The position numbers were made by a program, and so were the translations under genes. The notes beneath the pieces are model-generated. The model was not told where the DNA came from, ran no database searches, and worked only from the letters and a program-made list of their open reading frames with translations. From Stentor roeselii (Eukaryota > Ciliophora > Heterotrichea > Heterotrichida > Stentoridae): a stretch of DNA of 64,000 nt. Where the stretch lies: contig RSEH01000257.1 of NCBI GenBank assembly GCA_006503475.1, forward strand, positions 1 through 64,000, in the 5' to 3' direction. Shown here in pieces: positions 1,200 through 54,365 of this stretch; position 1 is the first letter of the stretch, and every line of letters begins with the position of its first letter.

Positions 1200-3947
1200 C
1201 TACCAATAATTTCTCTGATTATAATAATAGCTATTGTAGTTATAAGCAGGATGAATCGCCATAACACTACTGTAAGGATTGTAATTCTGATTTTGAGGAT
1301 AACTGGGATGCTGTGGGTACTGCGGATTTTGAGGATACTGAGAGTAACCATGCTGAACCGGCATAAAGTTATTCACATAAGCAGGACCTGGCCTATTCAC
1401 TTCAGCATTTCCCCGCCCATTGACTGGTCCAGATCCAGGTTTAGTATTATGAATAGATCCAAAATTTTCTTCCTTACTAGCAAAGCTATCTTCTAAATTC
1501 GGGTAAATTGCAGAGATTTTATCCTTGTTTTTATCTTCTAAAGTCAACTTCTTTATTATTGGAGTAATTTTAGACCCAACAATTTTATGCATTTCAATTG
1601 CCAAGTTTTTCTTAGGTTTTTTCTCTTGTTTATTTTGTGACCTTCCAAGAGCAATAAGACCAACTCCAAGTTTTTTCTTTTCAATATCATGAACATTATC
1701 TCTACCCTTAGCATATTTCTTCATATTTTTAAAGACATTTGTATTGTCTAACTTGAATTTATTTGTGATTTCTTCGAACTGGTCCTGATTCACAACATTT
1801 TTCTTAAGCATGAGTTCAGCGAATCGTTTATGGCCTTGACTTGAAGTGATAGGGTTGAGTTTGTCGTAGTCTTCCACGAAGTTCAAAGCGGCATCTTCGT
1901 ATTTTTGTGAATCATGATTCCAAATTCTTAAATCAGTTTTAACACAAAAGGCTGTAAAAACTTCTAAAGGTAAAAAATTGTATCCAATCATCACTAACAT
2001 CCAAATGAAAGCTAAGCCAGAATTATCTGGGTTTAAGTAGTTCATATAAACAAAGTTCATAATAGAATACAAAAGGACTGACCAAGGAATCACACTCATC
2101 ATGGTCTTTGCCAAGTCACCTGAAAGCTTTTTCGGCCAACTGTGTCTTCGAAGAAGCAGATATTTGAACACCCAGTACTCGAAAACTACGGCCACTGCTG
2201 AAAAAAAGAAAGCTATTGGAACTAAAGGAGCATAACAGAAGGTCAGTAGAATAGTTTTACTGATGTTTGCGAATCGTTGTGCCATGTCAGCTGCTGGACT
2301 TTCCATTAGTAGATTCGCATCATGTTGGCTGATATATGCAGCTTTTTCAACTTTTTTCATACGTAACTTGTAAATGCAGACCATTGGACTGAAAACGTAG
2401 AGCAGTGGACTGACAATTGCGTTTGATATTAAAATATAAGTTGCATCTGTTGCAAGACCTCCTGGAACGAACCAGTCTTCATACCAGTCGTAATTGACGA
2501 TGAGAGCGATGACTGCTGTATTGAAAAACATTGCAAGCATTAACTTTATAGCGACTGAGATGTTGTAGGCAGTCACTGAATGAGGTCTTTCATATGAAGT
2601 CGACACTCGTGTCGACCGTGATAAGATAAAGTTGATCATAATAATGATAACTGAAGGCCAAATAGAAATAGCTCTGATTTTCCAGCTGTCATTTTCATTA
2701 CCACTGCTACTTTTTTCATGTTCTTTATCCCCTAACACCTTCATACCATAAACCATTCCAAAAGTAACAGAAACAGCTAAAAACGTAAAAAGTGAAGTTT
2801 TTAAAGTATTCATAATTCTGTCCTTAAATGAAACTTCCAAATTTTCCCAGAAAATATCATTCGGCTCATTTGCAAGTCTCGCGAAAATATTTTTATTATG
2901 AAATCTTTCTAACTTTGTTTTGCCACAACAACAGAACAAGCTGCGGATAGTTGAGTTCCAAAAGCGATAAGCCCATTGTCGGCCGTATTTCAACTCAACT
3001 GCCCGGGCGTCTTCCTGGGTTTCAAAAGTGATAAATGCTTGGCCTGTCAGCAAGTCTCTTCCGACACCTGCGGGAAGGTCTTCTTCGTATTTTTTTATAT
3101 CAGCAGTGATTTTTTCCATTTCTTTTTTTATTTCTTCCTTGTCAATTGCTTTCTTTTTTTTGCAGCATCCTGAAGAGTTTGAGGCTCCATCTTTTTCGAG
3201 TTCTTCCATCATTCTCAAGCTTTCTCCGAGTTCTTCGAGTCTTCTGAGGTTGTCGATGTATTCTTTGATTTTGTAGGCAAATACCACTTTAACTACTTTC
3301 GCTGGCTTTCCATCAAATCTGCCGAAGTTTTCGAAAAAATCTTTGACTTCTGTTTCGTCAACATCGGTACCCAGGCCTGTTGCGTGAATTGTGTAATCGC
3401 GAGCTGTGAGTGCCATGATGTCGAACTCTCGATCTTTATTCTCAAACCACCTCCTAGCAATATGATAAATAATAATAACCAATATCATATAAGCCACATT
3501 CAAACAGCACTGCCAAAACGGGTAAATATGATCATTATATCCATTATTTCCCAAAGAAGCCTGAATGATCCAACTATCCTTATCAGCTTCCCAGTCATCA
3601 GCCTTATCAGCAAGTGAATTTCCAATAATACAAGGAATCCCAACAACGAAGACACCAAGTACCAAAATAGCTCCAACAATCTTAGAATAAACAAAATAAA
3701 GAGGAAATCCAGACCCAAGTTCAGAAAGTTCCATCATCGAGCACCCTAAAGGAAATTTTTCTGCATGAACAGGAAATCCACAACATTTGCACCTCTCAGA
3801 CTTTCCTTCTTTTATAGCTTTCCCTATTTGGTTGATATAATGAGCCTGCCGATGCTTCTGAGCTTCAATCATATCAGCCTTTCGATAAGGATCATAAGGC
3901 TGTTCAGTCTGCGTGCCTTCCAACGTTTGGCCTTTATGTTCATCCAT
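1200..3947 (-). CDS. TMEM63/OSCA (CSC1-like) mechanosensitive ion channel
   Basis: A 915-residue multi-pass membrane protein of the OSCA/TMEM63 (calcium-permeable stress-gated channel) family, expected to gate cations in response to membrane tension. N-terminal membrane segments lie near residues 81-109 and 141-163. A cytosolic RRM-like domain starts about residue 184 (RDYTIHATGLG, then DETEVKDFFENFG). The family-like NDIFWENL stretch and a block of further membrane segments follow from about 380. Two Cys clusters (CKCCGFP near 53 and CCKKKK in the cytosolic domain) could be acylated. The C-terminal ~45 residues are a QYPQNPQYPQHP-type Tyr/Pro/Gln tail, also present in the decayed copy next door. 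The start codon lies only 3 nt after the stop of the upstream surface-protein gene; Met26 is an alternative start. Family assignment is good, but gating and ion selectivity are inferred. Confidence 0.85.
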   Translation of the reverse strand: MDEHKGQTLEGTQTEQPYDPYRKADMIEAQKHRQAHYINQIGKAIKEGKSERCKCCGFPVHAEKFPLGCSMMELSELGSGFPLYFVYSKIVGAILVLGVFVVGIPCIIGNSLADKADDWEADKDSWIIQASLGNNGYNDHIYPFWQCCLNVAYMILVIIIYHIARRWFENKDREFDIMALTARDYTIHATGLGTDVDETEVKDFFENFGRFDGKPAKVVKVVFAYKIKEYIDNLRRLEELGESLRMMEELEKDGASNSSGCCKKKKAIDKEEIKKEMEKITADIKKYEEDLPAGVGRDLLTGQAFITFETQEDARAVELKYGRQWAYRFWNSTIRSLFCCCGKTKLERFHNKNIFARLANEPNDIFWENLEVSFKDRIMNTLKTSLFTFLAVSVTFGMVYGMKVLGDKEHEKSSSGNENDSWKIRAISIWPSVIIIMINFILSRSTRVSTSYERPHSVTAYNISVAIKLMLAMFFNTAVIALIVNYDWYEDWFVPGGLATDATYILISNAIVSPLLYVFSPMVCIYKLRMKKVEKAAYISQHDANLLMESPAADMAQRFANISKTILLTFCYAPLVPIAFFFSAVAVVFEYWVFKYLLLRRHSWPKKLSGDLAKTMMSVIPWSVLLYSIMNFVYMNYLNPDNSGLAFIWMLVMIGYNFLPLEVFTAFCVKTDLRIWNHDSQKYEDAALNFVEDYDKLNPITSSQGHKRFAELMLKKNVVNQDQFEEITNKFKLDNTNVFKNMKKYAKGRDNVHDIEKKKLGVGLIALGRSQNKQEKKPKKNLAIEMHKIVGSKITPIIKKLTLEDKNKDKISAIYPNLEDSFASKEENFGSIHNTKPGSGPVNGRGNAEVNRPGPAYVNNFMPVQHGYSQYPQNPQYPQHPSYPQNQNYNPYSSVMAIHPAYNYNSYYYNQRNYW

Positions 3948-3950
3948 TTA

Positions 3951-6900
3951 TTAGAAGAAAAGAGCAGTTGTTAAAATTACCGCAAGTCCTCTTCTCCAAG
4001 TCGAGCAAGACTCTTCTGACTCTGACTCATTTGCTTTCAATGTACGAAAGTCCTCACTCGGAAGTGACACTGACAGCGAATAAGCAGAAGTACTCGGCCA
4101 GATAGGATATTCATTAAAAGCGCAGCAAGTTGCAGTGTAATTCGTCTCAGAAGTCAAGTTAAAAACAGTCACCAACTCATTTTCAAAAGAACTCGCTTTC
4201 GTCGTGATGCAAGCTCCAAACTCATGAAAATTTTCCCGATTTAACTGAAGTAAAACTTGTGTAGGGTTGACTGTAAGTCTGGGATAATAACTGCTAGAAA
4301 CATTAGAAAAGTACTCTTCAGTGATACAGCACATCACTCCAGAAACTGCTGATTTTAAAGAGATCGACACTGAACTATCACTGATACTTTTTATCGTCGG
4401 GTACCCTGAGTTGGTCCAATAAGGTGTCTGTGAATTCGCCTTTGCCATATCAATTCTAGAGAAACTTACAACAGTATTCGTGATTCCTGAATTAAAAATC
4501 GCTGAAAACATCTTGTCCTGGTCTAGTTGATCATAAAGCTCCATCGGGGAAATGTCCCAGTTCCGCCTTGGGAACAACACCCAGGCAAAGAGAGTTGTTG
4601 ATGAAAGTCTTCGAGACCCTGTAGTCCTCAAACTCTGCAGTTGTTTTTCAGGGACTCCTAAAGAGTAAGCCACGATCGTCGTCAACGGGTAGCCTTTGCT
4701 TTCGACTAACAGGTCAGAAAAAAGAAGCTCAAGGCGAATGGACTCAGAAATTGAGGAAGTTTTGAAAGTCGTGTTGAAGGATGTGAAGTTGTTCAAAACG
4801 TAACCTGAAATAATGTACTCAGTCTCTGCCCAGAGCCAAGACGCCGAAGCGATTAAAGTTTTGATCCCTGCTGGAATGTAAGCCACGTCGAACCAAACCT
4901 GTCTCAAGGAATCGGAGTAGGTCCTTCTTTCGAAGTCCACCCAAGTTTCATTCACTCCTGGCTCGATCTCGAAAGATTCGTGAAAGTCTCTCATCTGGTC
5001 TGATAGTCGCACTCCTGGTCCACCTGTTAAAGGTTTTACTTGATTGATTAACTCGGAATAGCTCATCAAGGGGCTTCCGTAGGCTAGAACCTGCCAATAA
5101 ACAACGGCAGTTTTTTCAGAAGTTATATAAAGCGCAGCTGAAGTCCTGGTAATGTTTTCTGAAGAGAATTTGATGATGTTTGATGTGGTTGAAGAATTTC
5201 CGATGACCTGGAAGGCAACTTGTGGAACTTTGAATACCCCGGAGTCAGGTCCTGTTAAATCGAACTTAATCGAGTAGTTCACATTGAGTTGACCGTTGAA
5301 CTTATCTGAGACTTTGATGGTGAAGTAACCTTCAGTGACTTCAGGCTTGAAAGTAAGTGAAATAGGAGAAAGTTCAATTCCGTTTAAAGTCGCCTCTTCG
5401 AAAGACAGTGATAAAGTGAAGTTTGAAGATGGTGACACTGGAGACTGGATGCGGATGGGGAGAGACTCAGAAGATTTTTCAAGAAAAACAAGGTCCTCAG
5501 AAGATAAATTGAAAACTAACCCGGCGTAGACCTCGACAAGAGTTTTGCATGGCTTCGAGTACTCGGACTGTGCCAGTCCGAGCAAGGAGTACTCGTCCGT
5601 GTCCCAGTCAATGTAAAGAATTGAGTTTATAAAGGAAACTCCAGCACTGACCTTGAAAGTTATCTCCTGCATTCCTTGCCATATGTAAAACTGGTCAATT
5701 TCTGAAGTGAAAATGAGATCATTTAAGTTCTTTGAATGGTTCTTTGATTTGAATACTAGCTTCTTGGCCATTAGTCCCCAGGTACCTTCTACTTGAATGC
5801 GAAGGGATGAGGAAGTACTTCCAGGGACTACTAGTAAATGGCTTTCTTCATACTTTGGGTCGTATCCAGCGATCTTTATATTGCGGCCTGAACTTTTCAG
5901 TCCGATGAAGGCGGAGTTTAGGTTGCCGTATGATTTGCCGGATAATAGGTTTGTAGAACTGTCTAGAGTTAATATTTCGAACTGTCCTGTCCAGTCGGTG
6001 AGTCTTTCGAAGTAGTCGTTTTTTTGACCGTCGAAATAAAGGCTTCTGTCGAAGCCCCATTCAGGGTTCGGGACTTGTTCAAGAATTAACGAGATTTTAT
6101 CAGTCTCTGTCCAAGAGCCTGTTTCACTTATGTTCAGTGAAACGATATTTGAACCTGAATATGAACAGTTATTATTCGAGTTCCATTCAGAAAAAGTAAG
6201 TGAAACTGAATTATCTGACTCATCTAACACCCAAGATGAACAAGTAAGAGAAAGACTCTGCAGGTCCCAGTCGAGAAGGTATTGTCTTGGAAACTTTAAC
6301 AGTAAATAGTCGGATTTTGATATTGTTAGAGATGAAAAGTAAAGAGAAAATGTGTAGTCTGAGATTTCTTGAAGGTTTTTAGAGGATGGAGATATTGAAC
6401 GGATAGTTATACTAACTGCTGGCAAGTCAGAAATTGTTGGAGAACTGAAATCTGACTTCATTGCTTTGATCTTCTTTGTTGAATCAACTAAATATAATTT
6501 GAAATTATCCATCGAATCAGTTTTTCCAGGATTAATCACATTTTTTATTTTCAAGTCAACAACACTTCCAGCAGGTACAGTATCACAGTTCTGAACAACC
6601 AGCACCCAATGATCAACCTTACAAGTGATATCCCCAAGCACATCACTTTCACATTCCATATAAAACCCATTAGGTTCAGCCCAATTGAACTTAACCCTTG
6701 CATTTCCAATAAAAGGGTCATAATCATCAGGAAACTTGATCCAAATTTCATCTCCTTTTTCAATCTGACAGCTAAAAGTGAACTGAAAAAAGTAAAAAGC
6801 CTGTTCACCAGCATTTCCAGGTATAACCTTAAGTGTTTCCCCATCAATAACTTCATTCGGAGGATTGACAAGTACTAAAGTCTGACTACTTCCGACATCC

Positions 6901-9900
6901 GAGTCCTTATCAACAGACACTCCACTAAAAGAAGTAGAAATAGTGAATGAAAGTTCATCATCAATATTAATCGGGGTATCCAAACAGTCATCAACCATTA
7001 AAGTCAATAACCCTTCTTCAAAAGGCTCTGAAATAATAATTTGCAAGGAATTTCCAGAAGCCGAGCATGAAGAATAAGACAAAGAAAACCAGCACTTATC
7101 TTTAATGTCTCCATTTAAAGCCCAACTTGAAGTAGGACTTTTTATTGTGATGCTACTTCCTCGGGGAAGAGCATTTTCCAATGAAAAAATAATAAAAACT
7201 GAAACTGAGTCAGTTGAAGCCGTGTTGGGAAAAGTTGATAACTCTGAGTAAGAAGGAGACCCTGTCGATGCCTGTGGTTTGACTGTGATGCAAGTGTCAG
7301 AAGTACTTGAATCAGTGTCATCTGACCAGGACTCCACAAGTTTACTTGAAGAACCTGCGTAGATACTCACTGAGTCAAGACATCCTCTTTTCACATCTGA
7401 AGATCCAGTGTTCAAAGGAGGGATCAAGTTGGAAATCGTTAAAATTATTGAAGTTCCTGCTTCAATCAAGGAAAAACCTGAAATTTGATATGGAGCTGTT
7501 GAAGTTACTGAAAAAGTATCAAGGCCTTCTATTTGGAAGACTGTGTTATCGGAAACTCCCCATTCGCTGTCGATTTCTACTTCGATGTAAGAACCTTGGG
7601 GAACATTTGATATTGTCTTAAAAGTGGCAATTATTGACTGCTGGAGAGACCCTGGACCTCTGCCTTTCACGGTCTCAGGCGAAAAGTTTATAGAGAGGAC
7701 TCCTCGAGTTAAGGAAAATGATGGAAGGGTTCCTGTGATACTTTCACATCCCGTGTTCCAAGAACTTTTTGCTTCATATGGCATCAGTTTTACAGAAGGA
7801 CTTGAATATGAGTAAAAACCAACTGATTTGATTCCTATAAAGTGAAGAGTTGTTGTTGTACTTTTTGATAATGATAAATTTGGTGTCTCTTGGGAGAATA
7901 TACCTGGAAACTTGAAGTTTTGATTGGGACTTGAGAAAGATAAAACGTTTATTAGGTATTCACTACCGTCGGTTACTTTTGGGTTGGTTATTGAGAAACC
8001 TGCTGGAAGGACTAAACCGATGTAGCCTGTGGTGTCTGAAGCTGATGATGATGATTTTAAAGATAAGTCTAGACCTCCTTGTGAACTAGACGTAATCAAA
8101 GTACTAACTTGAACATTGCTGACAGTAGTAGATGAACTTTGCCAGTCTTTCGTGTTTGAAGCAACTGTTCGGCTGACTGTTTTCGAAAAAACTTCAAAAT
8201 GAATATCAGACCTGTCTTTTTTTAGGGTATATAAAGAGATTGTCACTGAGTATGTTCCTGCAGACAAGGAACCTATTGGAAAAAATGCTCTTAAAGTGTC
8301 TGTTTTTAAAACTGATGTTAGTCCTGATATTGTAAGGATGGGGGAAGAACCATGGTGAAGTTTCATCTTTGAGGAAACTGGAAGTGAGGATGTTGAGTCT
8401 AAATCGAATGGGTAATCCTCACCATCAGATAAACCACTACCCAGGTCACTTTCGAAACCTCCATCGAATTGAATGTCAATGTAGAGATAATAAAGAGTAC
8501 TATAGTCGAAATTCATAGAGCCTGTAATTCGAGCTGGCAAGCCAGCCTTTCCCGAATCCGTACAAATTAAATCAAAGTTCATCGAAGGTGAATGAGGCAG
8601 AATAGTGAAAGGTGTAGAGCTAACATAATAAGCATTACTGACAACGACTTCAACCCTAGACTCATACCTAGTAAATTCATTACTTCCAATAAAAGGCAAG
8701 TTCATCTGATCAGCAGTTCCACTTCCATCATCTTTAAAAAACGCCACACTTAAAAAATAATCCTTACTTGCCTCAACACTAAAAGTGATTCCCATCGAAT
8801 TAACAGTAACAGACCCAACAGAGTTTCCCGACGTCAAATCAATCGGCTGAGTGGAAGAAGAAGTCAAGTACTTCCCTTTCAAAGCATTTCCGAAATTGAT
8901 TCCAAAGTCAGCGCGAGCAGTAGTCGAAAGTGGAAAAAAGACCTGAACATTTTCCTGTAAAGTAAGAGCAACAGGCATTTTCATATAAACCACCAAATAA
9001 TACTTCCCTCCTCCAGTGTCACAGACCCTGTTGCTTGAAGTAGTATCAAGACTTTTCGAGAACAAGAGTGAATAAGAAGTAGCAAGTTTCACAGTAGAAG
9101 AATAAGACAAGCTAAGTGTCTGACCCTCAGACGAGTCGATGACAGTCTCTGAGTCGAAGAAAGTAGTGACTGTCTTAACACCTGCGGAATTTGACTGAAA
9201 CTTGACAAGTAAAGAGATGGTCAGGGTGTTACGAGCGATGATGTCAGAGTCGAACCCGGAGCATTCGACTTCACTTGTAGTGACTGAACAACTACCACCT
9301 ATAAAAGGATTTATATAATAATAACCTGTACTTCCTGATACTTTACTCTGGTCCTCATCACTTTTCCAAGCAGTACTCTCCAAGTCAACCCCTTCAAAAC
9401 TAACTAAAAATCTTCCTGATTTCGGAATCTGGTGATCAGGGGTAAAGGAAAGATCCATATACAACAACATTCCTGATACTATTTTTTTTACATCATAATT
9501 TCCATAAGGACTCCAAGAGTTAAGCGAAACTATTCCAGGATACGTTTTTGGACCTGAACCATGGAAACTTTCAATAATATTTCGACTTGAATAACGGAAA
9601 ATCTGCAAGTCCCAGATGTAATCGCTTGTCGGAAAAGCTGCCTCTGGGTTAGTGAAACCTGTGACTGAAAGACTGACTAAAAGACTTTTACTGTCCGAGA
9701 CTGAACTGATGTCGATGTCTGAAGAAAGCCCGAAAAGGCTTAACTCGTTTGAATTGATGGAACAACCGAATTGATGCTCGTCTGAAGCTGAAGTTTTTAA
9801 GTAGTTTAAGTTAGAGGCTACATCTTCTGAATGGCACACAGGGTTTAAAAGGGAAAAAGACTTCGGGATTGAAATTGTGATGATGTCTGAAGTCCAGAGG

Positions 9901-10454
9901 TCTTTAGTAAGGGTGAAAGTGAATAAAAGAGTGCTTTTCGCCTTTACTGTATCCATGTTCACATCGAAAAAACTCACTGTCAAGCTGTCAGAAGGTGGAG
10001 GCAAGTGAGCTCTTAATATTCCAACAGAGCAAAAAACTTTATTCACATCTAAAACCTGCCCATTCACTGATTTCCTGGTAAAAATCGCAAAAGGTCCATA
10101 AGCTCCAGGTGAGACTGGAAGAATAACACCTTCTATTTTCAAATCAACACTTTCCCTTACATCTTTCACAGTAATAGGAACAACTAAAATCTTATCCTGT
10201 AAGTAATACTCAGACCCAGTCACATCGAAACCTTCTGGAAAGTGCACCTCGACGATGCCATCAGAAACAAGAGAACTGACTGAAAAATGCACAAAAACTG
10301 TCACGTTTTCTCCAGCGTGATTCAAAGAAAACTCAACTGGGTGATTAACCCAAGAAGTCTTCGGCCATAAAATCCTGCCTGGGTCGATAAGTGAGTCCTT
10401 TTCAGAAAACACGAGAGCGGCTTGAACTCTGAAAAAAATCAGAAAAAATAGCAT
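3951..10454 (-). CDS. Giant secreted or membrane-anchored surface protein, 2167 aa
   Basis: Not recognised as a named family. The first 12-13 residues (MLFFLIFFRVQA) form a compact signal peptide, which fixes the start. The protein is rich in Ser, Thr and beta-branched residues with many N-x-S/T sites, suggesting an extracellular chain of beta-rich domains. The C-terminus (ESCSTWRR then GLAVILTTALFF) is a short hydrophobic tail with nothing after it, as in GPI-anchored proteins, though two Arg before the tail are not typical. No other membrane segment is evident. It sits between a cytoplasmic repeat protein (2 nt upstream) and a TMEM63-type channel (3 nt downstream), all on the same strand. 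A role as a large extracellular matrix or cortex protein is a guess from position and composition. Confidence 0.75.
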   Translation of the reverse strand: MLFFLIFFRVQAALVFSEKDSLIDPGRILWPKTSWVNHPVEFSLNHAGENVTVFVHFSVSSLVSDGIVEVHFPEGFDVTGSEYYLQDKILVVPITVKDVRESVDLKIEGVILPVSPGAYGPFAIFTRKSVNGQVLDVNKVFCSVGILRAHLPPPSDSLTVSFFDVNMDTVKAKSTLLFTFTLTKDLWTSDIITISIPKSFSLLNPVCHSEDVASNLNYLKTSASDEHQFGCSINSNELSLFGLSSDIDISSVSDSKSLLVSLSVTGFTNPEAAFPTSDYIWDLQIFRYSSRNIIESFHGSGPKTYPGIVSLNSWSPYGNYDVKKIVSGMLLYMDLSFTPDHQIPKSGRFLVSFEGVDLESTAWKSDEDQSKVSGSTGYYYINPFIGGSCSVTTSEVECSGFDSDIIARNTLTISLLVKFQSNSAGVKTVTTFFDSETVIDSSEGQTLSLSYSSTVKLATSYSLLFSKSLDTTSSNRVCDTGGGKYYLVVYMKMPVALTLQENVQVFFPLSTTARADFGINFGNALKGKYLTSSSTQPIDLTSGNSVGSVTVNSMGITFSVEASKDYFLSVAFFKDDGSGTADQMNLPFIGSNEFTRYESRVEVVVSNAYYVSSTPFTILPHSPSMNFDLICTDSGKAGLPARITGSMNFDYSTLYYLYIDIQFDGGFESDLGSGLSDGEDYPFDLDSTSSLPVSSKMKLHHGSSPILTISGLTSVLKTDTLRAFFPIGSLSAGTYSVTISLYTLKKDRSDIHFEVFSKTVSRTVASNTKDWQSSSTTVSNVQVSTLITSSSQGGLDLSLKSSSSASDTTGYIGLVLPAGFSITNPKVTDGSEYLINVLSFSSPNQNFKFPGIFSQETPNLSLSKSTTTTLHFIGIKSVGFYSYSSPSVKLMPYEAKSSWNTGCESITGTLPSFSLTRGVLSINFSPETVKGRGPGSLQQSIIATFKTISNVPQGSYIEVEIDSEWGVSDNTVFQIEGLDTFSVTSTAPYQISGFSLIEAGTSIILTISNLIPPLNTGSSDVKRGCLDSVSIYAGSSSKLVESWSDDTDSSTSDTCITVKPQASTGSPSYSELSTFPNTASTDSVSVFIIFSLENALPRGSSITIKSPTSSWALNGDIKDKCWFSLSYSSCSASGNSLQIIISEPFEEGLLTLMVDDCLDTPINIDDELSFTISTSFSGVSVDKDSDVGSSQTLVLVNPPNEVIDGETLKVIPGNAGEQAFYFFQFTFSCQIEKGDEIWIKFPDDYDPFIGNARVKFNWAEPNGFYMECESDVLGDITCKVDHWVLVVQNCDTVPAGSVVDLKIKNVINPGKTDSMDNFKLYLVDSTKKIKAMKSDFSSPTISDLPAVSITIRSISPSSKNLQEISDYTFSLYFSSLTISKSDYLLLKFPRQYLLDWDLQSLSLTCSSWVLDESDNSVSLTFSEWNSNNNCSYSGSNIVSLNISETGSWTETDKISLILEQVPNPEWGFDRSLYFDGQKNDYFERLTDWTGQFEILTLDSSTNLLSGKSYGNLNSAFIGLKSSGRNIKIAGYDPKYEESHLLVVPGSTSSSLRIQVEGTWGLMAKKLVFKSKNHSKNLNDLIFTSEIDQFYIWQGMQEITFKVSAGVSFINSILYIDWDTDEYSLLGLAQSEYSKPCKTLVEVYAGLVFNLSSEDLVFLEKSSESLPIRIQSPVSPSSNFTLSLSFEEATLNGIELSPISLTFKPEVTEGYFTIKVSDKFNGQLNVNYSIKFDLTGPDSGVFKVPQVAFQVIGNSSTTSNIIKFSSENITRTSAALYITSEKTAVVYWQVLAYGSPLMSYSELINQVKPLTGGPGVRLSDQMRDFHESFEIEPGVNETWVDFERRTYSDSLRQVWFDVAYIPAGIKTLIASASWLWAETEYIISGYVLNNFTSFNTTFKTSSISESIRLELLFSDLLVESKGYPLTTIVAYSLGVPEKQLQSLRTTGSRRLSSTTLFAWVLFPRRNWDISPMELYDQLDQDKMFSAIFNSGITNTVVSFSRIDMAKANSQTPYWTNSGYPTIKSISDSSVSISLKSAVSGVMCCITEEYFSNVSSSYYPRLTVNPTQVLLQLNRENFHEFGACITTKASSFENELVTVFNLTSETNYTATCCAFNEYPIWPSTSAYSLSVSLPSEDFRTLKANESESEESCSTWRRGLAVILTTALFF

Positions 10455-10456
10455 TA

Positions 10457-13400
10457 TTACTTTAATCTATGCATCTTACTCATGTACTCCGCCTCTTGTA
10501 CCAGGGCAAGTTCTTCTTCAGTGAAATAAGGTTCATACTTAACTCCAGAATCTTCTAAATTCTTTTTTATCGCAAGTAAAATTTTCATCTTAGAACGATT
10601 TTTATTAGAACTGTCAGTCGCGGATTCAACAAGCAAAGGTCTTTTATTAACATTTTCTTTCATTGCTCTTAGTTTTTCCTGGTATTCTTCTTCCTGTCTT
10701 TTCGCTTCTTCTTTTCTTTTCCTCAGTCTTTCATTTATGTTGTTCTTATCTGCAGAAGACTGCTGCTCTTCAGCTGAAATGACTTTTTTAAGAGGATTCA
10801 TTGTGTCGTATTTTTTTGATGATGAAGTTTTAGACATGTCTTTAGTTGTTTTTGTTTGTTTTGATGTTGTTGATTTTTGTGCAGAGGGTTTGGATAGGGC
10901 GTGTTTGCTTGATTCTTCTGGAATCGGCTGCAGGTCTTGGTACCTGGCTCCTGGAAGTGAAAAGTCATGGACTGATGATGATGGAGATAATGGGTTGGAT
11001 GAAGACTTGTCTGGTGCTAAAGGATTTGATGAAGGCTTGTCTGGTGCTAAAGGATTTGATGAAGGCTTGTCTGGTGCTAAAGGATTTGATGACGGGTAGT
11101 CAGGCCCTAATGGGTTGAAGGAAGACTTGTCAGGCGCTAATGGGTTGAAGGAAGGCTTGTCAGGCGCTAATGGGTTGAAGGAAGGCTTGTCAGGCGCTAA
11201 TGGGTTGAAGGAAGGCTTGTCAGGCGCTAATGGGTTGAAGGAAGGCTTGTCAGGCGCTAATGGGTTGAAGGAAGGCTTGTCAGGCGCTAATGGGTTGAAG
11301 GAAGGCTTGTCAGGCGCTAATGGGTTGAAGGAAGGCTTGTCAGGTGCCAATGGATTGCTTCTTGATGAGAGAGATGAAGGCGTCCCTCCTTTTTCACTTG
11401 GAGCTAAAACGTTACTCTTGTCTCCTGGCTTTGAAAGAGAAGGAAATCCTGAACTACTTTGCTTTTTCATATCAGAACCCACAGAATTCGATGAGGAAGG
11501 CGCCAGTGGGTTAGATGAAGGAGGTGCCAAGGAATTCGATGACTTTCCAAGGTCTTTCATTGTAAAATCTCCTGATTTAGATGGCTGGACAAGGTCTTTC
11601 GCAGTAAAATCTCCTGATTTTCCTGGACTTTTCTTTGAAGCTTGATTTGGATTCGCACCTGATTTTTTACCTTTTTCTTGAAATGACTTGTTGAATGACT
11701 GTCCTGGCTTGTTTCCTTGCTTTGACTTGGGCTGAGGAGAAGGTCGTAGTGCATCCATTGTGATTGAGTCTTTTGATAGGTCTTTTTGGGTGAACCCGAT
11801 CGGCTTTTTGCCTTCAGGAGTAGATTCTCTTGAACGAGAACTGGATTTTTTTCTTTCAGGTTTGGAAAATTTCGTTTTTAGCGACTCGTGGTCGGACTTC
11901 CAGTTGGTTTTTGCTTTTAGTCTTTCGTTTCTCATTTTTTCTTCTTCGGATTTTCGCTTTTTTTCTTCTTCTTCTTTTTTCTTGGCTTCTTCTTCTTCAC
12001 GCTTTTTACGGTTTTCTTCTTTTCTTTTGTTGTTCTCTTCGACTCTCTGGTCTATTAGAAAAGGCTCGACTAAAGTATTTTTTTTTGCACTTTTTTTGGC
12101 TTCTAAGGTTTTTTCGAATCTTTCTTGTAGCTTTTTAAAGTTTGGAGGGTCTTTAACAGTGAACTTAGGACTAGGCGTTTCAGTTTTCGGAATTTCACTT
12201 TTTTTCACATGCTGATACATTTCCATCCTCGGCGGTAAGGAAGCTTTCCTCAAATTTTCCTGTGCAGCCCTACTTTTCCTTTCCTCTCTCAAAGCTTCTT
12301 CTTCTCTAATCCTCGATTCATAAAGTGTAACCGTACAAGCCCAAGGTATAGGATTCGCTTTAAACTGATAACTCGGAGGACTAACCTGTTGTTTAGGTGG
12401 TTTTTCCTTTTCCCTTATATAAAAACTAAAAGGTTTTTCAAGTTGTTTAGTTTTTTCAGCTGATTCAATCCTGACTTTCTTAGACCGATCTTCTAAAGCC
12501 TTTTTCAATTTTTCATACTTAGGCTGTGAGACCTCTCTAGGTACATCTCGAGCCTGATACTTAAACTCAATATGTCCTTTCAGTTTTTTTTCCCGTTCTT
12601 CACAGTCTTTTTCAAGCCACTTCTCACGAATAGACTTTTTCTTAAACTTTTCACGGTCTTCAAATTGAAAAGGTGCTGGAATGGTGACATCTTTCGTAAC
12701 ATCTTTTTCATAAAAAGTGACTCGTTGTCGAGGTGAGGTACTTCTACTTCTATGTGAATGTTTTTTCACTTCCAAGTCCTCAGTCTGCATGAAATTTTCC
12801 TTTACAGGCTTCGGAGGTTTTTTCGCCTTAACAAAAGAATTCCGAGTGATGAGTGACTCGCCGATTAAAGAGTCCTTTGGAAGGCCTCTCTTGCTTAGAA
12901 ACCCGAGAATATCAGGCCAGGAGATGAGAGACTCTGCATTTTCTTGCATTCTTTCAAGGACTTCTGCAAGAGTTTCTTCTGGAATGTGAGATAAACCTTC
13001 AGGAATTCGAGCAGTGTATGAAAGTAAGGCACTTGTTTTTGTATCGTTTTTTAATGCTTGGATGAACTCGAAGGTGGAGACTTTGTTATGGGTTTTTTTG
13101 TCAAGGTCTTCGAAAACTTCTTGAATTAAAGTCACGAAACGCCCTGGAAGGTCTATTTCGTTTAGTTTTGGGTTTTCTAGACCTTCGAAACGACTTTCTT
13201 CAAATATAGGAGCGACGAAGAAGTACTCGAGGAATTGGTTCCAGGTTATTAGCTCTTCTGAGTCTAGAGTGTCGTTTTTTATGAAGAGAAGCATGCTTTC
13301 AAGGTCTAGGATTTGGTAACTGCTTACTCGCACTGCGTCGATGTGAAGGATTTTTATTATGTTTTCGTCTTCTAGCATTGATGAAATCAACTCGCCTCGG

Positions 13401-14317
13401 GGAACTACGAAGTCTTGGTGGACGTCAAGTTTCAAAAAAATCTCTTCTAACTTAGCCATATGTTTATAAGGTACCAAACAAGTAGGACTACTTTCTTTCT
13501 CATGTTTCAATGACTTTGCAGAAGACGATGTCCTTAAAATCGAAGCCTTCTCCTTAAAGCTATTTTTCTTCACTTCTCTATCAGGACTAAATTTCCTTTT
13601 CCCATCCCTAACCGCAGGCGAGTTACCTTCAAGATTCCTTCCCCTATCACTCCTCAAAACATTTTGATTATCCTCAGCAATTTTCGCTTCAATAATATTA
13701 TCAACTCTTTTCTGTTCCTTCTGACTCATAAACCTTTCAAATTTCTCATAATATTCCTTTTGATACCCAGTAAGTCTCTCCGGTTTTTTAACTTCCTCCT
13801 TATACGGTCGATACACAGGAAGATATTCATCATTACAATTAATCACTTCCTTAGTTTTACTTCTCCTTATTTCCGCCTCAATTTCCACAAGTCGAGCGGC
13901 ATTTTTTTCTTTAAGCAATTCGATTTCCTGCAAAGAAATCTTTTTATTCAAGTCAAAATCCTGTCGTCCATGACTATGACTTCGATGAGAAGGAGGGTCC
14001 AGATGTAAAATGCCTTCTTGAAAATGATGACTTCTAAGTTTTTCAATATTTCCTGACTGTTGTTTGAGTCTTTCCAGTTCTCTTTCAATGACGTGCAAAG
14101 GTGGGACCTGCGGGTCAGCCGAGAAGCGATGTCCAAGTTCTTCAGGTTTTGCAGTGTTTGGCGTGTAGACCTGCGGAGGAGGTGCAGGTTTTTTTCCCAT
14201 ATGAAAACCGCCGCCGTAGGACATCCTGGGCTTGTCTCCGCGAAAGGACTGAAAAGGAGTTTTAGAAGTGTCTGAAGAAGACACCTCGAAAGACAGCTGG
14301 TGGCCGGTTATTTGCAT
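10457..14317 (-). CDS. 1287-aa cytoplasmic protein with EF-hand-like region and NPLAPDKP repeats
   Basis: Unknown family. The N-terminus (MQITGHQLSFEVSS) is followed by charged, coil-forming segments. An EF-hand-like helical region begins about residue 286 (LEEIFLKLDVHQDFV) and a second about 400-430 (FEDLDKKTHNKVSTFEF). A long E/K/R-rich coiled-coil stretch is next, then roughly thirteen copies of a ten-residue NPLAPDKPSF/SS unit, then a coiled-coil C-terminus. The loops lack a full canonical set of calcium ligands, so calcium binding is uncertain. An in-frame ATG 45 nt upstream exists, but it lies inside the divergent neighbour's coding sequence and would add a hydrophobic stretch, so I chose the ATG at 14317. 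The stop is followed by only TA before the next gene's ATG. Cytoskeletal or scaffold function is inferred. Confidence 0.75.
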   Translation of the reverse strand: MQITGHQLSFEVSSSDTSKTPFQSFRGDKPRMSYGGGFHMGKKPAPPPQVYTPNTAKPEELGHRFSADPQVPPLHVIERELERLKQQSGNIEKLRSHHFQEGILHLDPPSHRSHSHGRQDFDLNKKISLQEIELLKEKNAARLVEIEAEIRRSKTKEVINCNDEYLPVYRPYKEEVKKPERLTGYQKEYYEKFERFMSQKEQKRVDNIIEAKIAEDNQNVLRSDRGRNLEGNSPAVRDGKRKFSPDREVKKNSFKEKASILRTSSSAKSLKHEKESSPTCLVPYKHMAKLEEIFLKLDVHQDFVVPRGELISSMLEDENIIKILHIDAVRVSSYQILDLESMLLFIKNDTLDSEELITWNQFLEYFFVAPIFEESRFEGLENPKLNEIDLPGRFVTLIQEVFEDLDKKTHNKVSTFEFIQALKNDTKTSALLSYTARIPEGLSHIPEETLAEVLERMQENAESLISWPDILGFLSKRGLPKDSLIGESLITRNSFVKAKKPPKPVKENFMQTEDLEVKKHSHRSRSTSPRQRVTFYEKDVTKDVTIPAPFQFEDREKFKKKSIREKWLEKDCEEREKKLKGHIEFKYQARDVPREVSQPKYEKLKKALEDRSKKVRIESAEKTKQLEKPFSFYIREKEKPPKQQVSPPSYQFKANPIPWACTVTLYESRIREEEALREERKSRAAQENLRKASLPPRMEMYQHVKKSEIPKTETPSPKFTVKDPPNFKKLQERFEKTLEAKKSAKKNTLVEPFLIDQRVEENNKRKEENRKKREEEEAKKKEEEEKKRKSEEEKMRNERLKAKTNWKSDHESLKTKFSKPERKKSSSRSRESTPEGKKPIGFTQKDLSKDSITMDALRPSPQPKSKQGNKPGQSFNKSFQEKGKKSGANPNQASKKSPGKSGDFTAKDLVQPSKSGDFTMKDLGKSSNSLAPPSSNPLAPSSSNSVGSDMKKQSSSGFPSLSKPGDKSNVLAPSEKGGTPSSLSSRSNPLAPDKPSFNPLAPDKPSFNPLAPDKPSFNPLAPDKPSFNPLAPDKPSFNPLAPDKPSFNPLAPDKPSFNPLAPDKSSFNPLGPDYPSSNPLAPDKPSSNPLAPDKPSSNPLAPDKSSSNPLSPSSSVHDFSLPGARYQDLQPIPEESSKHALSKPSAQKSTTSKQTKTTKDMSKTSSSKKYDTMNPLKKVISAEEQQSSADKNNINERLRKRKEEAKRQEEEYQEKLRAMKENVNKRPLLVESATDSSNKNRSKMKILLAIKKNLEDSGVKYEPYFTEEELALVQEAEYMSKMHRLK
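10981..11370 (-). repeat. In-frame 30-bp tandem repeat (about 13 units)
   Basis: Thirty-base units run head to tail inside the 1287-aa gene, each encoding NPLAPDKP plus SF or SS. Seven consecutive units (11131-11340) appear identical base for base. Those at 10981-11100 form a second, slightly diverged subfamily, and the outer units are degenerate. Because the period is a multiple of three, copy number can change without breaking the frame. Confidence 0.95.
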
Positions 14318-14330: not shown

Positions 14331-16595
14331 ATGGCCAGAAATCGAAGCCATGATCCGGTCAAAGGACCACCTGAAGTCCAGGTTTTGAACTATTCCACAA
14401 TTGTTGCTAGTTTTTCATTGAAACTTAAAGCTTTAGAGGAAAAATACTCGGGATTTGTAGCTAATTGTTTAAAGATCATTAAAAAAGCGCAGAAGTTTTT
14501 AGATATCAATTTGACTGAACATCTTAACTCGAGTGATAATCAGTCTTCAAAGTTCATTGAAAACTTGAATAAACAGAAGGTGAAGTTGAAGAGAGACTTG
14601 GTAAGTATTGAAAAGATGAGCTTTGACTTGAAAAATTCGCAGGGGAATGAAAGAGATGGAAAATTTTTAAGTTCTTTTCGAAATGCGAAAGAAAAGATAT
14701 TGGAAAAGTTAGAGGATCATAAAGCTAGGTATTTTATTCAGACTGTTTTAAATAATTTGGAGGATAAAGTGAATAAAGAACTGCAGGTCTTTGAAAACTT
14801 CGGAAATTATTATGCCAGGCTTTATGAAGTTGAAGAGTTGCTTGGAAGGAAAACTAAAGAATTCGAGGTCTTGATGGAAAGTTACAATAAGTTAAAAGGT
14901 GAAAGTGAAATGCTTGTTACTAATGAGAAGAAGTTTCTAGTTACTAGTCCTAAACACTTTTCATCTGGAAGGACTTCACCTTCAGGTTTCTCTTCAAAGT
15001 CTCGAGACCTTGAAATTCAGAAGCTTCAGTCAGAAATTCAGTACCTCAAAGAAAAAATCAACAACTTAACAGGCACAGCTAAAAAAATCGTTGCTCGAAA
15101 AGATGAAGAACTTCAAAAACTTTTAGAGGAAAAATCAAATACTTTAGCACTTCCAAAACTTCTGAAAAACTTTAAAATTTTTGAGAATTTTGAAGAAACT
15201 GTGAGGAATAAACTTGGAATACTTTCAACTTCTCTTCGCATTATTCAAGGAAAAGTGAAAAAATTTAGAATTCTTCAAAAGTCCTGCGTTGAAAAAGAGG
15301 TTCATAAAGAGTCTCTTGAAAGCCTGGAAAGACTTGTTAGGGACTTGAAAGAGCAGCTTATTGAAAAAGAAGACTTTCTCTCAAAGCAAAAGGAAAAGTT
15401 CCTGAAATTAAATAAACTTTACTCAGACCTTCATGAAAAGACAAAAATTTTTAATGTTCGGTATGATGGGCTTGTTGGAGAAATGAATGAAAAAAATGAG
15501 ATTATTGCGAAGTTTGAAGAAATTCGAGCAGAAAATGAAAAACTTAGAAACTATAAAATTGAACTTGATAAAGAAATCACGGAGTTAAAAGATTATTTTC
15601 AGAGTGATATTGATGGCTTGAGTAATAAAATTGAGAAGTTGTTCGGGGAAAACTTGTGTCTTAAGCAAAAAAATGATGAACTGAAAGATAAGTATGAAAA
15701 GGTCATGGTTGAAAAAGAGAAAATTTTAATACAGTTCTTTGAAAAACAGGAAAGCGAACTTGTTAATAAAGAATTGAAAAGCCCTTCTTCACTTGCTTTG
15801 AAACAGGAACTAAAAATCGCTTCTTTAAAAATCGAATCTCTCACTAAAGAAAACCAGTTTTTAAGGTCTAGCCAAAAATCCATCGATAAAATTGCATTCA
15901 AAGAAATTTCGAGTCTTTTTTTCATCTTGACTAACAGCTTCTCTGACTTGTTCAATAAAAGTTTCAGAAAAACTTCAGAAAAACTTAAAAATCTTGAAAA
16001 AATTTTCGAAAAATTCTTGAATCTGCAGAAAAAAAAAGTAAAATTTCAGGTTTCAGATGTTTCTGGGCAAAAAGCAGCTGAAATTATTAAGATTAATCAA
16101 AAAATTAGTATGGAAAATGAAAAATTGTTGAAAAAATGCGAAAGTTATCAAGGGTTAATCACGAATCTGCAGCAAACTTGTGAAAAATTAACTTCGCAGC
16201 AGGATTCTCTTTATAAATGCCCAACTTGTGATAGTTTTTCGAAGATTATTAAGGAAAAAGATGAGAGGATCAAGTTTTTACAGAAGGAAGTTTATACATT
16301 AGGAAGTGAAAATACTAAACTTAGAAACGATATCCAAGAAATAGAGTTTACGTTCAGGGATCAAGTAGAAAGCAAGGATTATGAAGTAGAAAATAAGAAA
16401 ATGAAACATTCCAGAGGACTTGTGGTTTTTACTGATGTAATTAAGGCAGGGGATTCAAAAAATATTTCCCCAACTGTTTCTGATGTTGACTTGACATACA
16501 CTTTAGAAGGGACGACTATAAAAAGCACTCATGACATAAACACTCCTCTAAGTGTTTCTCATGATGATATTAAAGATTTAGAATTTATAGAGTAG
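14331..16595 (+). CDS. Long coiled-coil protein, 754 aa
   Basis: A Lys/Glu/Leu-rich protein with near-continuous heptads from about residue 20 to 690, ending in a less charged tail (TDVIKAGDSK to DDIKDLEFIE). One CPTC motif (KCPTCDSFSK) occurs near residue 630. No recognised domain; similar proteins often serve as cytoskeletal or centriolar scaffolds, but nothing here proves that. I start at MARNRSHDPVKG. An in-frame ATG 63 nt further upstream would place the start inside the divergent gene. Convergent with the RING gene, 172 nt downstream. Confidence 0.8.
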   Translation: MARNRSHDPVKGPPEVQVLNYSTIVASFSLKLKALEEKYSGFVANCLKIIKKAQKFLDINLTEHLNSSDNQSSKFIENLNKQKVKLKRDLVSIEKMSFDLKNSQGNERDGKFLSSFRNAKEKILEKLEDHKARYFIQTVLNNLEDKVNKELQVFENFGNYYARLYEVEELLGRKTKEFEVLMESYNKLKGESEMLVTNEKKFLVTSPKHFSSGRTSPSGFSSKSRDLEIQKLQSEIQYLKEKINNLTGTAKKIVARKDEELQKLLEEKSNTLALPKLLKNFKIFENFEETVRNKLGILSTSLRIIQGKVKKFRILQKSCVEKEVHKESLESLERLVRDLKEQLIEKEDFLSKQKEKFLKLNKLYSDLHEKTKIFNVRYDGLVGEMNEKNEIIAKFEEIRAENEKLRNYKIELDKEITELKDYFQSDIDGLSNKIEKLFGENLCLKQKNDELKDKYEKVMVEKEKILIQFFEKQESELVNKELKSPSSLALKQELKIASLKIESLTKENQFLRSSQKSIDKIAFKEISSLFFILTNSFSDLFNKSFRKTSEKLKNLEKIFEKFLNLQKKKVKFQVSDVSGQKAAEIIKINQKISMENEKLLKKCESYQGLITNLQQTCEKLTSQQDSLYKCPTCDSFSKIIKEKDERIKFLQKEVYTLGSENTKLRNDIQEIEFTFRDQVESKDYEVENKKMKHSRGLVVFTDVIKAGDSKNISPTVSDVDLTYTLEGTTIKSTHDINTPLSVSHDDIKDLEFIE

Positions 16596-52241: not shown

Positions 52242-54365
52242 TTAAAGATGGTTTAAATAGAAAAGAATCCAGTAATGAACTCTTTCAAAAAGCATTTCTC
52301 TTGGACAAGGCTTTTGGATCACGTCGCACATTCCATGGTCGAAACATTTCGCTTTAATGATTTCACTTTGATAAGCTGTACATGCGAGAATAGGTGGAAG
52401 GTTAAGAATTGCTTTTTCTTGTTGAAGGGTTTTTAGCTTTTTACTTGTTTGCCAACCGTCCATGATGGGCATTTCACAGTCCATTAAAATGCAGCTAAAA
52501 TTATTTTTCATTACTTTTTCTATTGCTTCTTCTCCGTTCATCGCATATTTGCAAATGATGCCTGTTTGTTTAAACATCTCAAGTAATGCGATTATGTTGA
52601 AGTAAACGTCGTCTACTATTAATACCTCGATTTTTCGGTGCATGGTCTTTGCGAGAAGGGAAGGCACTGAAATGTTTATACCTTCGTTTGCAATGTCGCA
52701 GGCACTGTTGTAGGATTCTTCTGCGGAGACTTCGAAGATAAATGAAGAACCGACTCCGAATTCACTGTTGACGAGGATTCCTTCGCCACCTAAAGCCTTT
52801 ACTAGCTGGTTTGATATCACTAAACCTAGACCAACACCTTGAAGGTTGAAATTGTTGGATTCTTCTATTTTGCTGAATTCTTTAAATAGTGTTCCAAGCT
52901 TATTGGTTGGAATTCCTATTCCAGTATCCGAGCAAGTAAATTTCAATCTAGAACTCTCATAAATCACCTCTAATTTAATCAACCCTTTTAAAGTAAACTT
53001 CCGAGCATTGTTTATCAAATTAAGAATGATCTGTTTTAATCTATTCGGATCCGAGACTATATTTTCAGGAGAATTTTTTATTTCAGTTTCAAGCTTGACA
53101 TTAGAATTCAGTTGAGGAGTGATTAAAGAAACACATTCTTTCAGTAAGTTAAAAAGATTCATAGAAACTTTCGTGACTTTCAAGCAACCAGCAACGATTT
53201 GAGCGTAGTCAAGCAAGTCATTGATGAGACAAAGTTGAAAAGAACAGGAAGCTTGAATAGTTTTCATCTTTTTTTTATTTTCTTTTGAGAGTTGTTTACT
53301 TTCGAGGATCAGGTTGCCGATGGATAAAATCGCATTTGCAGGTGTTCTGAGTTCGTGAGAAACTGTGTTTATTAAAGCACCTCTGTAAGAGTTTTCACGA
53401 TTTTCTTTTTCAAGTTCGATGATTTTGGTTATTACCCTGCCACTTAGCATAAGTACATTTTCATCGTCCCATTTTATTATTTTACCTGTCCATTCTATGT
53501 GGTGATGCTCTCCTGTTACTACCCCGTAGTGGATGCAACTATTTAGAGGTAGTGAAAGTGTCTTCTGAATATCAAGTGAAATTTGTTCATTTTCAAAGAA
53601 ACTGTTTTTGTAAGTTTTAGAATATGGAAAACCTTTAAGTTTATCAACAAGTAATGAAAATCCTGTAAACCCACGAGCTGAAGAGTTGATAAAAAGCTCT
53701 TTATTATCCTGTGAGAGGACTATGATGTAATCTTGCAAGGTTTCAAGTATGGAGGTAACTTTATCGTTGGCTGATTTAACCTCATAGTTCGATTTTAAGA
53801 TTTTCACTGTCACTTTATGTTCATAGTAAATTGTTTGCACAAGGCAGGCAAATAAATAAAAAGATGAGACAAAAAAACATGAAAATAGACTAAACTGAAT
53901 TTTTCTGTAGTAAAAGCCAAAAGCAATCCAAAGTGTTGAATGCTTTAAAGAAAGCATAAAACAAGTCTTAAGACTCAAACAGAGGTATCCTTGATAATAA
54001 AAAATCACACAAGTAGCGATTTGACCCCATATGACTGAAAATTCTGGATAGTGAACATATGACAAGTATATCAACACAAGATTATAAGTTTCTCCAATGA
54101 TCAAAGAAACTGTTGAGCTATTCATGTATCCTTTTTTTATAAGTTTGAACTGTAAAATCACGACTCCATAAGACAAAATCATCACAAATTTCATTATAAA
54201 ATTACTGAATAACCCTGTTCTTGCCAGATCGAAGAGAATCACGCATGTTCCACAGAAGACTGCTAAACGATTCGAAAGTGTCAATCTTTCATAAGCTGAA
54301 ATCACTGAGTAGGTTTTCAGGTTTTTTTCAATATAGTCTTCCATATTTATAACTATGATATTCAC
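52242..54365 (-). CDS. Hybrid sensor histidine kinase, 707 aa
   Basis: Residues 1-200 hold about six membrane segments; a PAS-like region follows (about 205-310). The HisKA domain has the H-box NTVSHELRTPANAIL with His337. The ATP-binding domain shows an N box (LILNLINNARKF), a G1 box (CSDTGIGIP) and a G2-like box (GVGLGLVISNQL). A C-terminal receiver domain has EVLIVDD and phospho-acceptor Asp629 (ILMDCEMPIMDGW), with a closing KP. Such hybrid kinases sense signals at a membrane and pass phosphate to an HPt protein, which is not in this window. A second in-frame Met (MEDYIEKN) seven codons on may be the true start. Confidence 0.93.
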   Translation of the reverse strand: MNIIVINMEDYIEKNLKTYSVISAYERLTLSNRLAVFCGTCVILFDLARTGLFSNFIMKFVMILSYGVVILQFKLIKKGYMNSSTVSLIIGETYNLVLIYLSYVHYPEFSVIWGQIATCVIFYYQGYLCLSLKTCFMLSLKHSTLWIAFGFYYRKIQFSLFSCFFVSSFYLFACLVQTIYYEHKVTVKILKSNYEVKSANDKVTSILETLQDYIIVLSQDNKELFINSSARGFTGFSLLVDKLKGFPYSKTYKNSFFENEQISLDIQKTLSLPLNSCIHYGVVTGEHHHIEWTGKIIKWDDENVLMLSGRVITKIIELEKENRENSYRGALINTVSHELRTPANAILSIGNLILESKQLSKENKKKMKTIQASCSFQLCLINDLLDYAQIVAGCLKVTKVSMNLFNLLKECVSLITPQLNSNVKLETEIKNSPENIVSDPNRLKQIILNLINNARKFTLKGLIKLEVIYESSRLKFTCSDTGIGIPTNKLGTLFKEFSKIEESNNFNLQGVGLGLVISNQLVKALGGEGILVNSEFGVGSSFIFEVSAEESYNSACDIANEGINISVPSLLAKTMHRKIEVLIVDDVYFNIIALLEMFKQTGIICKYAMNGEEAIEKVMKNNFSCILMDCEMPIMDGWQTSKKLKTLQQEKAILNLPPILACTAYQSEIIKAKCFDHGMCDVIQKPCPREMLFERVHYWILFYLNHL

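Follow-up and report, generated by a model that had tools for sequence, protein, structure and literature searches.

Do three long genes on the same strand, separated by only 2 and 3 nucleotides (nt), share a messenger RNA (mRNA), or are they separate genes in an extremely compact genome? The question is raised by a trio of genes in a 64,000-nt stretch of Stentor roeselii DNA (contig RSEH01000257.1, positions 1 to 64,000, here called the window), which is contig C182 of a 44.39-Mb assembly. We consider it highly probable that the three are separate transcription units with tiny or overlapping untranslated regions (UTRs), in a compact macronuclear genome of the heterotrich type. Separate genes are more likely than one message because neighbouring genes are packed equally tightly in every orientation, including in pairs that cannot be operons. 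The trio is real, yet ordinary for its own genome.

Arrangement of the three genes

The genes and spacers, in 5' to 3' order on the minus strand, are as follows.

10457-14317, minus strand: gene 1, 1286 residues plus stop; FAM161A/B domain, a weak EF-hand-like stretch and a run of NPLAPDKPSF-type repeats
10455-10456, minus strand: junction 1 spacer, TA, 2 nt, between TAA and ATG
3951-10454, minus strand: gene 2, 2167 residues in one open frame; surface protein with signal peptide and hydrophobic C-terminal tail
3948-3950, minus strand: junction 2 spacer, TAA, 3 nt, between TAA and ATG; a second in-frame stop
1200-3947, minus strand: gene 3, 915 residues; TMEM63/OSCA-type membrane protein

The junctions read AAG TAA TA ATG CTA and TTC TTC TAA TAA ATG GAT, and genes 2 and 3 share a frame. 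These sequences confirm the same-strand spacers of 2 and 3 nt described in a first-pass annotation of the window, and with them its observation that no room is left for a separate promoter, 5' UTR or 3' UTR. The standard code reads all three genes through. The length of 1287 given earlier for gene 1 is correct when the stop is counted; the protein has 1286 residues.

Alignments with paralogues elsewhere in the genome support four of the predicted gene boundaries: where gene 1 stops, where gene 2 starts and stops, and where gene 3 starts. Gene 1 can be aligned with its paralogue on contig C407 up to residue 1279 of 1286; its first ATG is not fixed by paralogues, the earliest match beginning at residue 31. 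The first methionine (Met) and signal peptide of gene 2 align with those of the seven paralogues examined, the short hydrophobic stretch standing at the same alignment position, and the earlier argument that the signal peptide fixes the start of the middle gene is thus upheld; in the paralogue at locus L014 another possible Met lies 10 residues further upstream. A short hydrophobic tail directly precedes the stop in gene 2 and in 7/7 paralogues examined, and in this family it resembles a glycosylphosphatidylinositol (GPI)-anchor signal. For gene 3, the first Met aligns with that of a copy on contig C343 that is 74% identical.

Spacing of neighbouring genes by orientation

Gap lengths were surveyed in 31 stretches with a total of 312,312 bases, comprising the window, 14 further 10-kb stretches and 16 paralogue loci with their flanks; 7 of 37 paralogue or sampled loci were excluded because of overlap with others or a contig end. 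A simple codon-based gene finder, which assumed the standard code and allowed introns of 15 or 16 nt only, called 164 genes of at least 300 nt. Median gaps were 86 nt for 71 tandem pairs, 28 nt for 29 convergent pairs and 105.5 nt for 30 divergent pairs. Gaps of at most 15 nt were present in 15 tandem, 7 convergent and 5 divergent pairs, and gaps of at most 3 nt in 5, 3 and 0, respectively.

Tight spacing specific to same-strand neighbours was not found in these stretches: at most 15 nt separated 15/71 tandem and 12/59 non-tandem pairs (Fisher p = 1.0). The comparison at 3 nt gave 5/71 against 3/59 (p = 0.73), or 3/69 tandem pairs with the trio removed (p = 1.0), and that at 30 nt gave p = 0.72. 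Across a robustness set of 18 runs (three stretch sets, three gene penalties and two length limits, the original setting included) p at 15 nt was never below 0.31. The 14 sampled stretches alone contain gaps of at most 15 nt in 9/39 tandem and 5/24 non-tandem pairs, and the orientation of neighbours is near random (71 tandem against 59 non-tandem, p = 0.33). Operons would concentrate tight gaps in tandem pairs, and since there is no significant excess of that kind, separate genes are favoured. The predicted ATGs of the five tightest divergent pairs are 5, 8, 8, 13 and 13 nt apart, and an 8-nt pair at locus L011 includes a paralogue of gene 2 in which the signal peptide pins down the start. The tight tandem gaps themselves (0, 1, 2, 3, 3, 4, 6, 8 nt and so on) occupy all three frames.

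Two tight gaps in a row are unusual for one window, and tandem gaps of at most 3 nt are denser here (3/19) than in the other stretches (2/52). Without the trio, such gaps make up 3/128 neighbouring pairs, and 1/63 in the 14 sampled stretches alone. Extrapolated to about 23,000 genes in 44.4 Mb, and assuming independence, some 5 to 13 cases of two consecutive gaps of at most 3 nt would be expected. The trio is thus a tail case of a general property.

Neighbourhoods of related genes

We compared 34 other loci of the genome, the paralogues being taken with flanks of about 1.5 kb; 20 match one trio protein and none matches more than one, and on contig C52 a gene-2 relative and a TMEM63 relative lie about 95 kb apart. 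Seven gene-2 paralogues were examined, and among the four with a called upstream neighbour three face it on the opposite strand (at 192, 8 and 56 nt) and one has it on the same strand (394 nt). Four of the five TMEM63 relatives examined have an opposite-strand upstream neighbour, and the fifth, the 74% copy, lies 520 nt from a same-strand neighbour. A gene whose upstream neighbour is on the opposite strand cannot be a downstream cistron of that neighbour. The earlier suggestion that the trio is special or co-transcribed is therefore not supported, given gaps just as small (15 nt or less) in divergent and convergent pairs and relatives that are not neighbours in the other loci examined.

Start context and stop codons

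Ordinary starts in this genome (146 aligned) are preceded by a start box with 82-90% A+T at positions -7 to -1, in which A is favoured at -4, -2 and -1 and endings such as ATAA occur. A matrix describing this box was trained on 96 starts that have an upstream gap of more than 60 nt or no called upstream neighbour. The boxes at the two junctions are these.

10455-10461, minus strand: gene 2 start box, AGTAATA (-7 to -1), overlapping the gene 1 stop; score 2.07
3948-3954, minus strand: gene 3 start box, CTAATAA (-7 to -1), overlapping the gene 2 stop; score 5.55

At both junctions the upstream stop codon makes up part of the A/T-rich box. The gene 3 score is good, being above 71% of the training starts and 98.7% of 1086 internal ATGs; that of gene 2 is modest, being above 27% and 86.8%, respectively. 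Fifteen tight-tandem starts score 3.86, compared with 3.62 for the training starts (p = 0.70), and the 1086 internal ATGs, at -2.05, lie far below them (p = 1e-7); ten tight-divergent starts score 4.77. The role of the box may lie in transcription, as a promoter element, in translation, as the context of the start codon, or in both. TAA is the stop in 5/5 genes that are followed by a tandem gap of at most 3 nt, in 5/10 at 4-15 nt and in 27/56 above 15 nt; this bias at the tightest gaps agrees with shared use of stop and box and is suggestive, the numbers being few. A second stop follows immediately in 16/150 genes, as TAATAA in 6. A comparison of 5- and 6-mers upstream of 51 genes with gaps above 200 nt revealed no outstanding motif by inspection, without a significance test.

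In the arrangement that we propose, each gene would have its own promoter and its own poly(A) site; its 5' and 3' UTRs would measure at most a few tens of nt, down to none at all, and extend into neighbouring coding sequence. The stop codons TAA and TAATAA would do double duty as part of the A/T-rich start box of the next gene. Transcription would start at the box or just upstream of it, inside the 3' end of the previous gene, and poly(A) would be added within the start of the next gene or just past it. The separate transcript for each gene and the positions of the transcript ends are what we infer from these sequence features.

Several observations weigh against separate transcription units. 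With genes of at least 600 nt, gaps of at most 15 nt are slightly commoner in tandem pairs, though not significantly (13/44 against 7/33, p = 0.44; with another gene penalty 14/43 against 7/33, p = 0.31), as are gaps of at most 3 nt (4/44 against 1/33; 3/11 against 0/11 in the window alone). At 3 nt or less there are 0/30 divergent pairs, all three non-tandem cases being convergent. The gene finder favours early ATGs, so that some divergent gaps are possibly underestimated, the start of gene 1 being one such case. The survey covers 312 kb of 44.4 Mb and has low power to reveal operons if these are few. The box at junction 1 exceeds just 27% of the training starts, and these starts were scored with a matrix built from themselves.

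Alternative explanations

The alternative that survives best, though we regard it as improbable, is that two or all three genes lie on one mRNA and that the downstream cistrons are translated by termination-reinitiation, with TAATAATG and TAATAAATG serving as stop-restart signals. What would suggest it are the same-strand spacers of only 2 and 3 nt, together with the slight excess of tight tandem gaps among longer genes; in prokaryotes, translational coupling goes along with tight stop-start spacing (PMC10666635), and in yeast reinitiation has been reported to give bicistronic expression (PMC11952965). Tandem pairs do not, however, have significantly more tight gaps than non-tandem pairs, and the examined loci with relatives, including those on contig C52, do not keep the genes together. 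First cistrons of 1286 and 2167 codons are also very long for reinitiation. Both downstream starts retain the A/T-rich box, which speaks against a shared message, although the box could be translation context only. Ribosomes that reached the downstream cistrons by leaky scanning would have 41 internal ATGs to skip in gene 1 and 90 in gene 2, and first cistrons of this length and ATG content are poor candidates for such a mechanism. No ciliate polycistron was apparent in the titles and abstract openings listed by searches of open-licence PMC papers. If a shared mRNA were nevertheless true, the macronuclear genome would hide a class of genes whose translation is coupled although their cistrons exceed 1000 codons.

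It is very unlikely that the junctions are not gene boundaries at all, with a spliced mRNA encoding genes 1 and 2, or genes 2 and 3, as a single protein. A candidate intron is a 32-nt GT-AG stretch at junction 1 with a T-run and a CAG end, whose excision would take out the stop and the signal peptide without a change of frame. When GT-AG stretches of 10-89 nt that overlap the stop were enumerated at both junctions, those that fuse the genes in frame had lengths of 32, 53, 59, 59 and 86 nt at junction 1 and 72 and 81 nt at junction 2; none of 15 or 16 nt removes either stop in frame. Introns in Blepharisma are predominantly 15 or 16 nt (PMC9942806), and the genome studied here has a modest excess at 15 nt, GTAA..AG stretches of 15 and 16 nt numbering 145 and 109, respectively, against 62-125 at other lengths from 11 to 30 nt. 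Moreover, the signal peptide and tail of gene 2 and the N-terminus of gene 3 are conserved in stand-alone paralogues.

Readthrough at junction 2, producing a fused surface protein and channel, is scarcely credible: the shared frame of genes 2 and 3 with TAA TAA between them would permit it, but the ribosome would have to read through two stops in succession, the tight tandem gaps of the sample are spread over all three frames, and a hydrophobic tail followed by a cytosolic N-terminus would make no obvious fusion. Loss of longer spacers through an assembly error is just as implausible, for although each full junction was found at a single place in an assembly search, so that a second copy for cross-checking is absent, and no second haplotype of either junction was found in the assembly, the three frames are intact across 13 kb and junctions like these two occur elsewhere in the genome, one of them in this window, where the first gene of a 0-nt pair stops at its natural domain end.

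The interpretation as three separate transcription units therefore stands as the most likely one. The first-pass annotation had offered a choice between transcripts that overlap into neighbouring coding sequence and a shared mRNA, and had named extreme packing alone as an outcome that would count against it; that outcome is the best supported.

Predicted products

Gene 1 matches PF10595 (FAM161A/B) with E = 1.2e-32 and 113.8 bits, against a cut-off of 29.9; there are four PF10595 matches in the genome and none in 14 named prokaryote controls (0/14). It had been labelled EF-hand-like at first. A weak stretch of that kind is present, below the Pfam cut-off (E = 0.011, 16.5 bits against 30), and the label is corrected to FAM161A/B-like. 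At about 11020-11370 of the window on the minus strand, gene 1 contains a 10-residue repeat of the NPLAPDKPSF type in about twelve almost identical copies.

Gene 2 has no Pfam match. Its relatives are found at 12 other places in the genome, one of them matched in two pieces, and the 13 loci, gene 2 included, are single open frames of 1814-2171 codons. A signal-peptide-like start and a hydrophobic tail are present in all eight members examined. A Pfam search with these eight gave nothing at E of 0.05 or less; at E 0.05-0.09 each match, such as that to fn3, was confined to one member, and the family profile had no match to PDB sequences up to E = 1. A structural model of the first 767 residues of gene 2 is all-beta with immunoglobulin (Ig)-like domains, at a predicted local distance difference test (pLDDT) value of 69.5. 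Bacterial Ig-like domains, Chlamydomonas mastigonemes and integrins are among the 50 fold matches listed, none of which exceeds a template modelling score (TM-score) of 0.26. Judging from the model, the surface protein encoded by gene 2 probably has tandem Ig-like beta domains.

The earlier assignment of gene 3 to the TMEM63 type is borne out by a match to PHM7_cyt (PF14703) of 44.1 bits, above the cut-off of 27, and this domain is matched in 6/6 family members. RSN1_7TM reaches 18.2 bits in gene 3, below its cut-off of 28.7; across the family it is matched in 5/6 members (E up to 0.01), and Anoctamin is also matched, in 6/6. The gene 3 model is of low confidence (pLDDT 45.4). Its first 31 fold matches (E of 0.001 or less) are 30 entries titled TMEM63 or OSCA and one titled as a plant cation channel, with query TM-scores of 0.25-0.37. 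Neither gene 1 nor gene 3 had a match in PDB by phmmer up to E = 0.01. A common function of the three proteins at the cortex is possible.

Downstream of gene 3, at 299-977 of the window on the minus strand, there is a degenerate second TMEM63-like stretch with internal stops. At the end of contig C343 (locus L002, C343 21729-26795) a 96%-identical gene-3 C-terminus is followed by the intact 74% copy. Taken together, the two places look like a tandem TMEM63 array with variant versions.

Comparison with other compact genomes

The first-pass annotation had recognized a heterotrich-like genome, and we agree. The telomere repeat, CCCTAACA, forms the first bases of contig C516 (locus L024) and is not at the starts of C499 and C407 (one of three contig starts). 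The repeat and the short intergenic medians are features shared with compact heterotrich macronuclear genomes. In Blepharisma stoltei, too, intergenic regions are short, and introns as well as untranslated regions are tiny (PMC9942806). This species differs in that UGA encodes tryptophan there, whereas the standard code assumed here reads the trio through. Heterotrich 3' UTRs have medians of 21-23 nt, the shortest among eukaryotes that the authors found, and in some Condylostoma transcripts poly(A) follows right after the stop (PMC4967479). The relevant passages of these two heterotrich papers (PMC9942806, PMC4967479) mention neither junctions of 0-3 nt nor the sharing of a stop with a start box.

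Paramecium offers a further parallel as a compact ciliate genome with short UTRs (medians of 19 nt at the 5' and 44 nt at the 3' end), for which overlapping UTRs have been invoked (PMC5485702); the ends were measured there and are proposed from sequence here. Bicistronic loci of green algae also have two tandem open reading frames (ORFs) on one strand; their mechanism is leaky scanning, which relies on a weak first start and on few AUGs upstream of the second ORF (PMC11892635). They differ from the trio in this last respect, the first ORFs here having the length and internal ATGs given above. The A/T-rich element directly at the ATG, with a 5' UTR presumed to be very short, also resembles the A/T-rich initiators that lie at the start codon in Giardia; in the present genome the element is defined from sequence.

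The sampled stretches show how far a eukaryotic nuclear genome can be packed, with gaps of 0-13 nt between predicted coding sequences in every orientation and a stop merged into a start box, and tight spacing alone is not evidence for operons in ciliates. Should separate transcripts be confirmed, promoters and poly(A) signals must sit inside neighbouring coding sequence, and the junctions would be good places at which to ask what a eukaryotic promoter or terminator minimally needs.

Other features of the window and of related loci

Upstream of gene 1 and at the other end of the window lie further closely spaced genes.

14331-16595, plus strand: divergent neighbour of gene 1, 754 residues; predicted ATG 13 nt from the first ATG of gene 1
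57424-58599, plus strand: diacylglycerol-kinase-like gene
58600-61419, plus strand: gene for 939 residues, following the preceding gene with a gap of 0 nt

The divergent neighbour has only weak, sub-threshold coiled-coil matches in Pfam, and the 13-nt gap is to be read with the possibility that gene 1 starts further in than its first ATG. The second tandem case has TAA directly followed by ATG (58597-58602), with both genes in the same frame, and the diacylglycerol-kinase-like gene is complete to its last domain, the YegS_C match extending to residue 386 of 391. At 61419/61420 two convergent predicted genes have abutting stop codons, with 0 nt between them. At locus L014 an ORF (start at 1408-1410) overlaps the stop of the gene-2 paralogue by one base (TAATG); its first codons are signal-peptide-like by inspection, and the gene finder chose an ATG 30 nt further in. 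A hybrid histidine kinase with HisKA, HATPase_c and response-regulator domains is encoded at 52242-54344 of the window on the minus strand.

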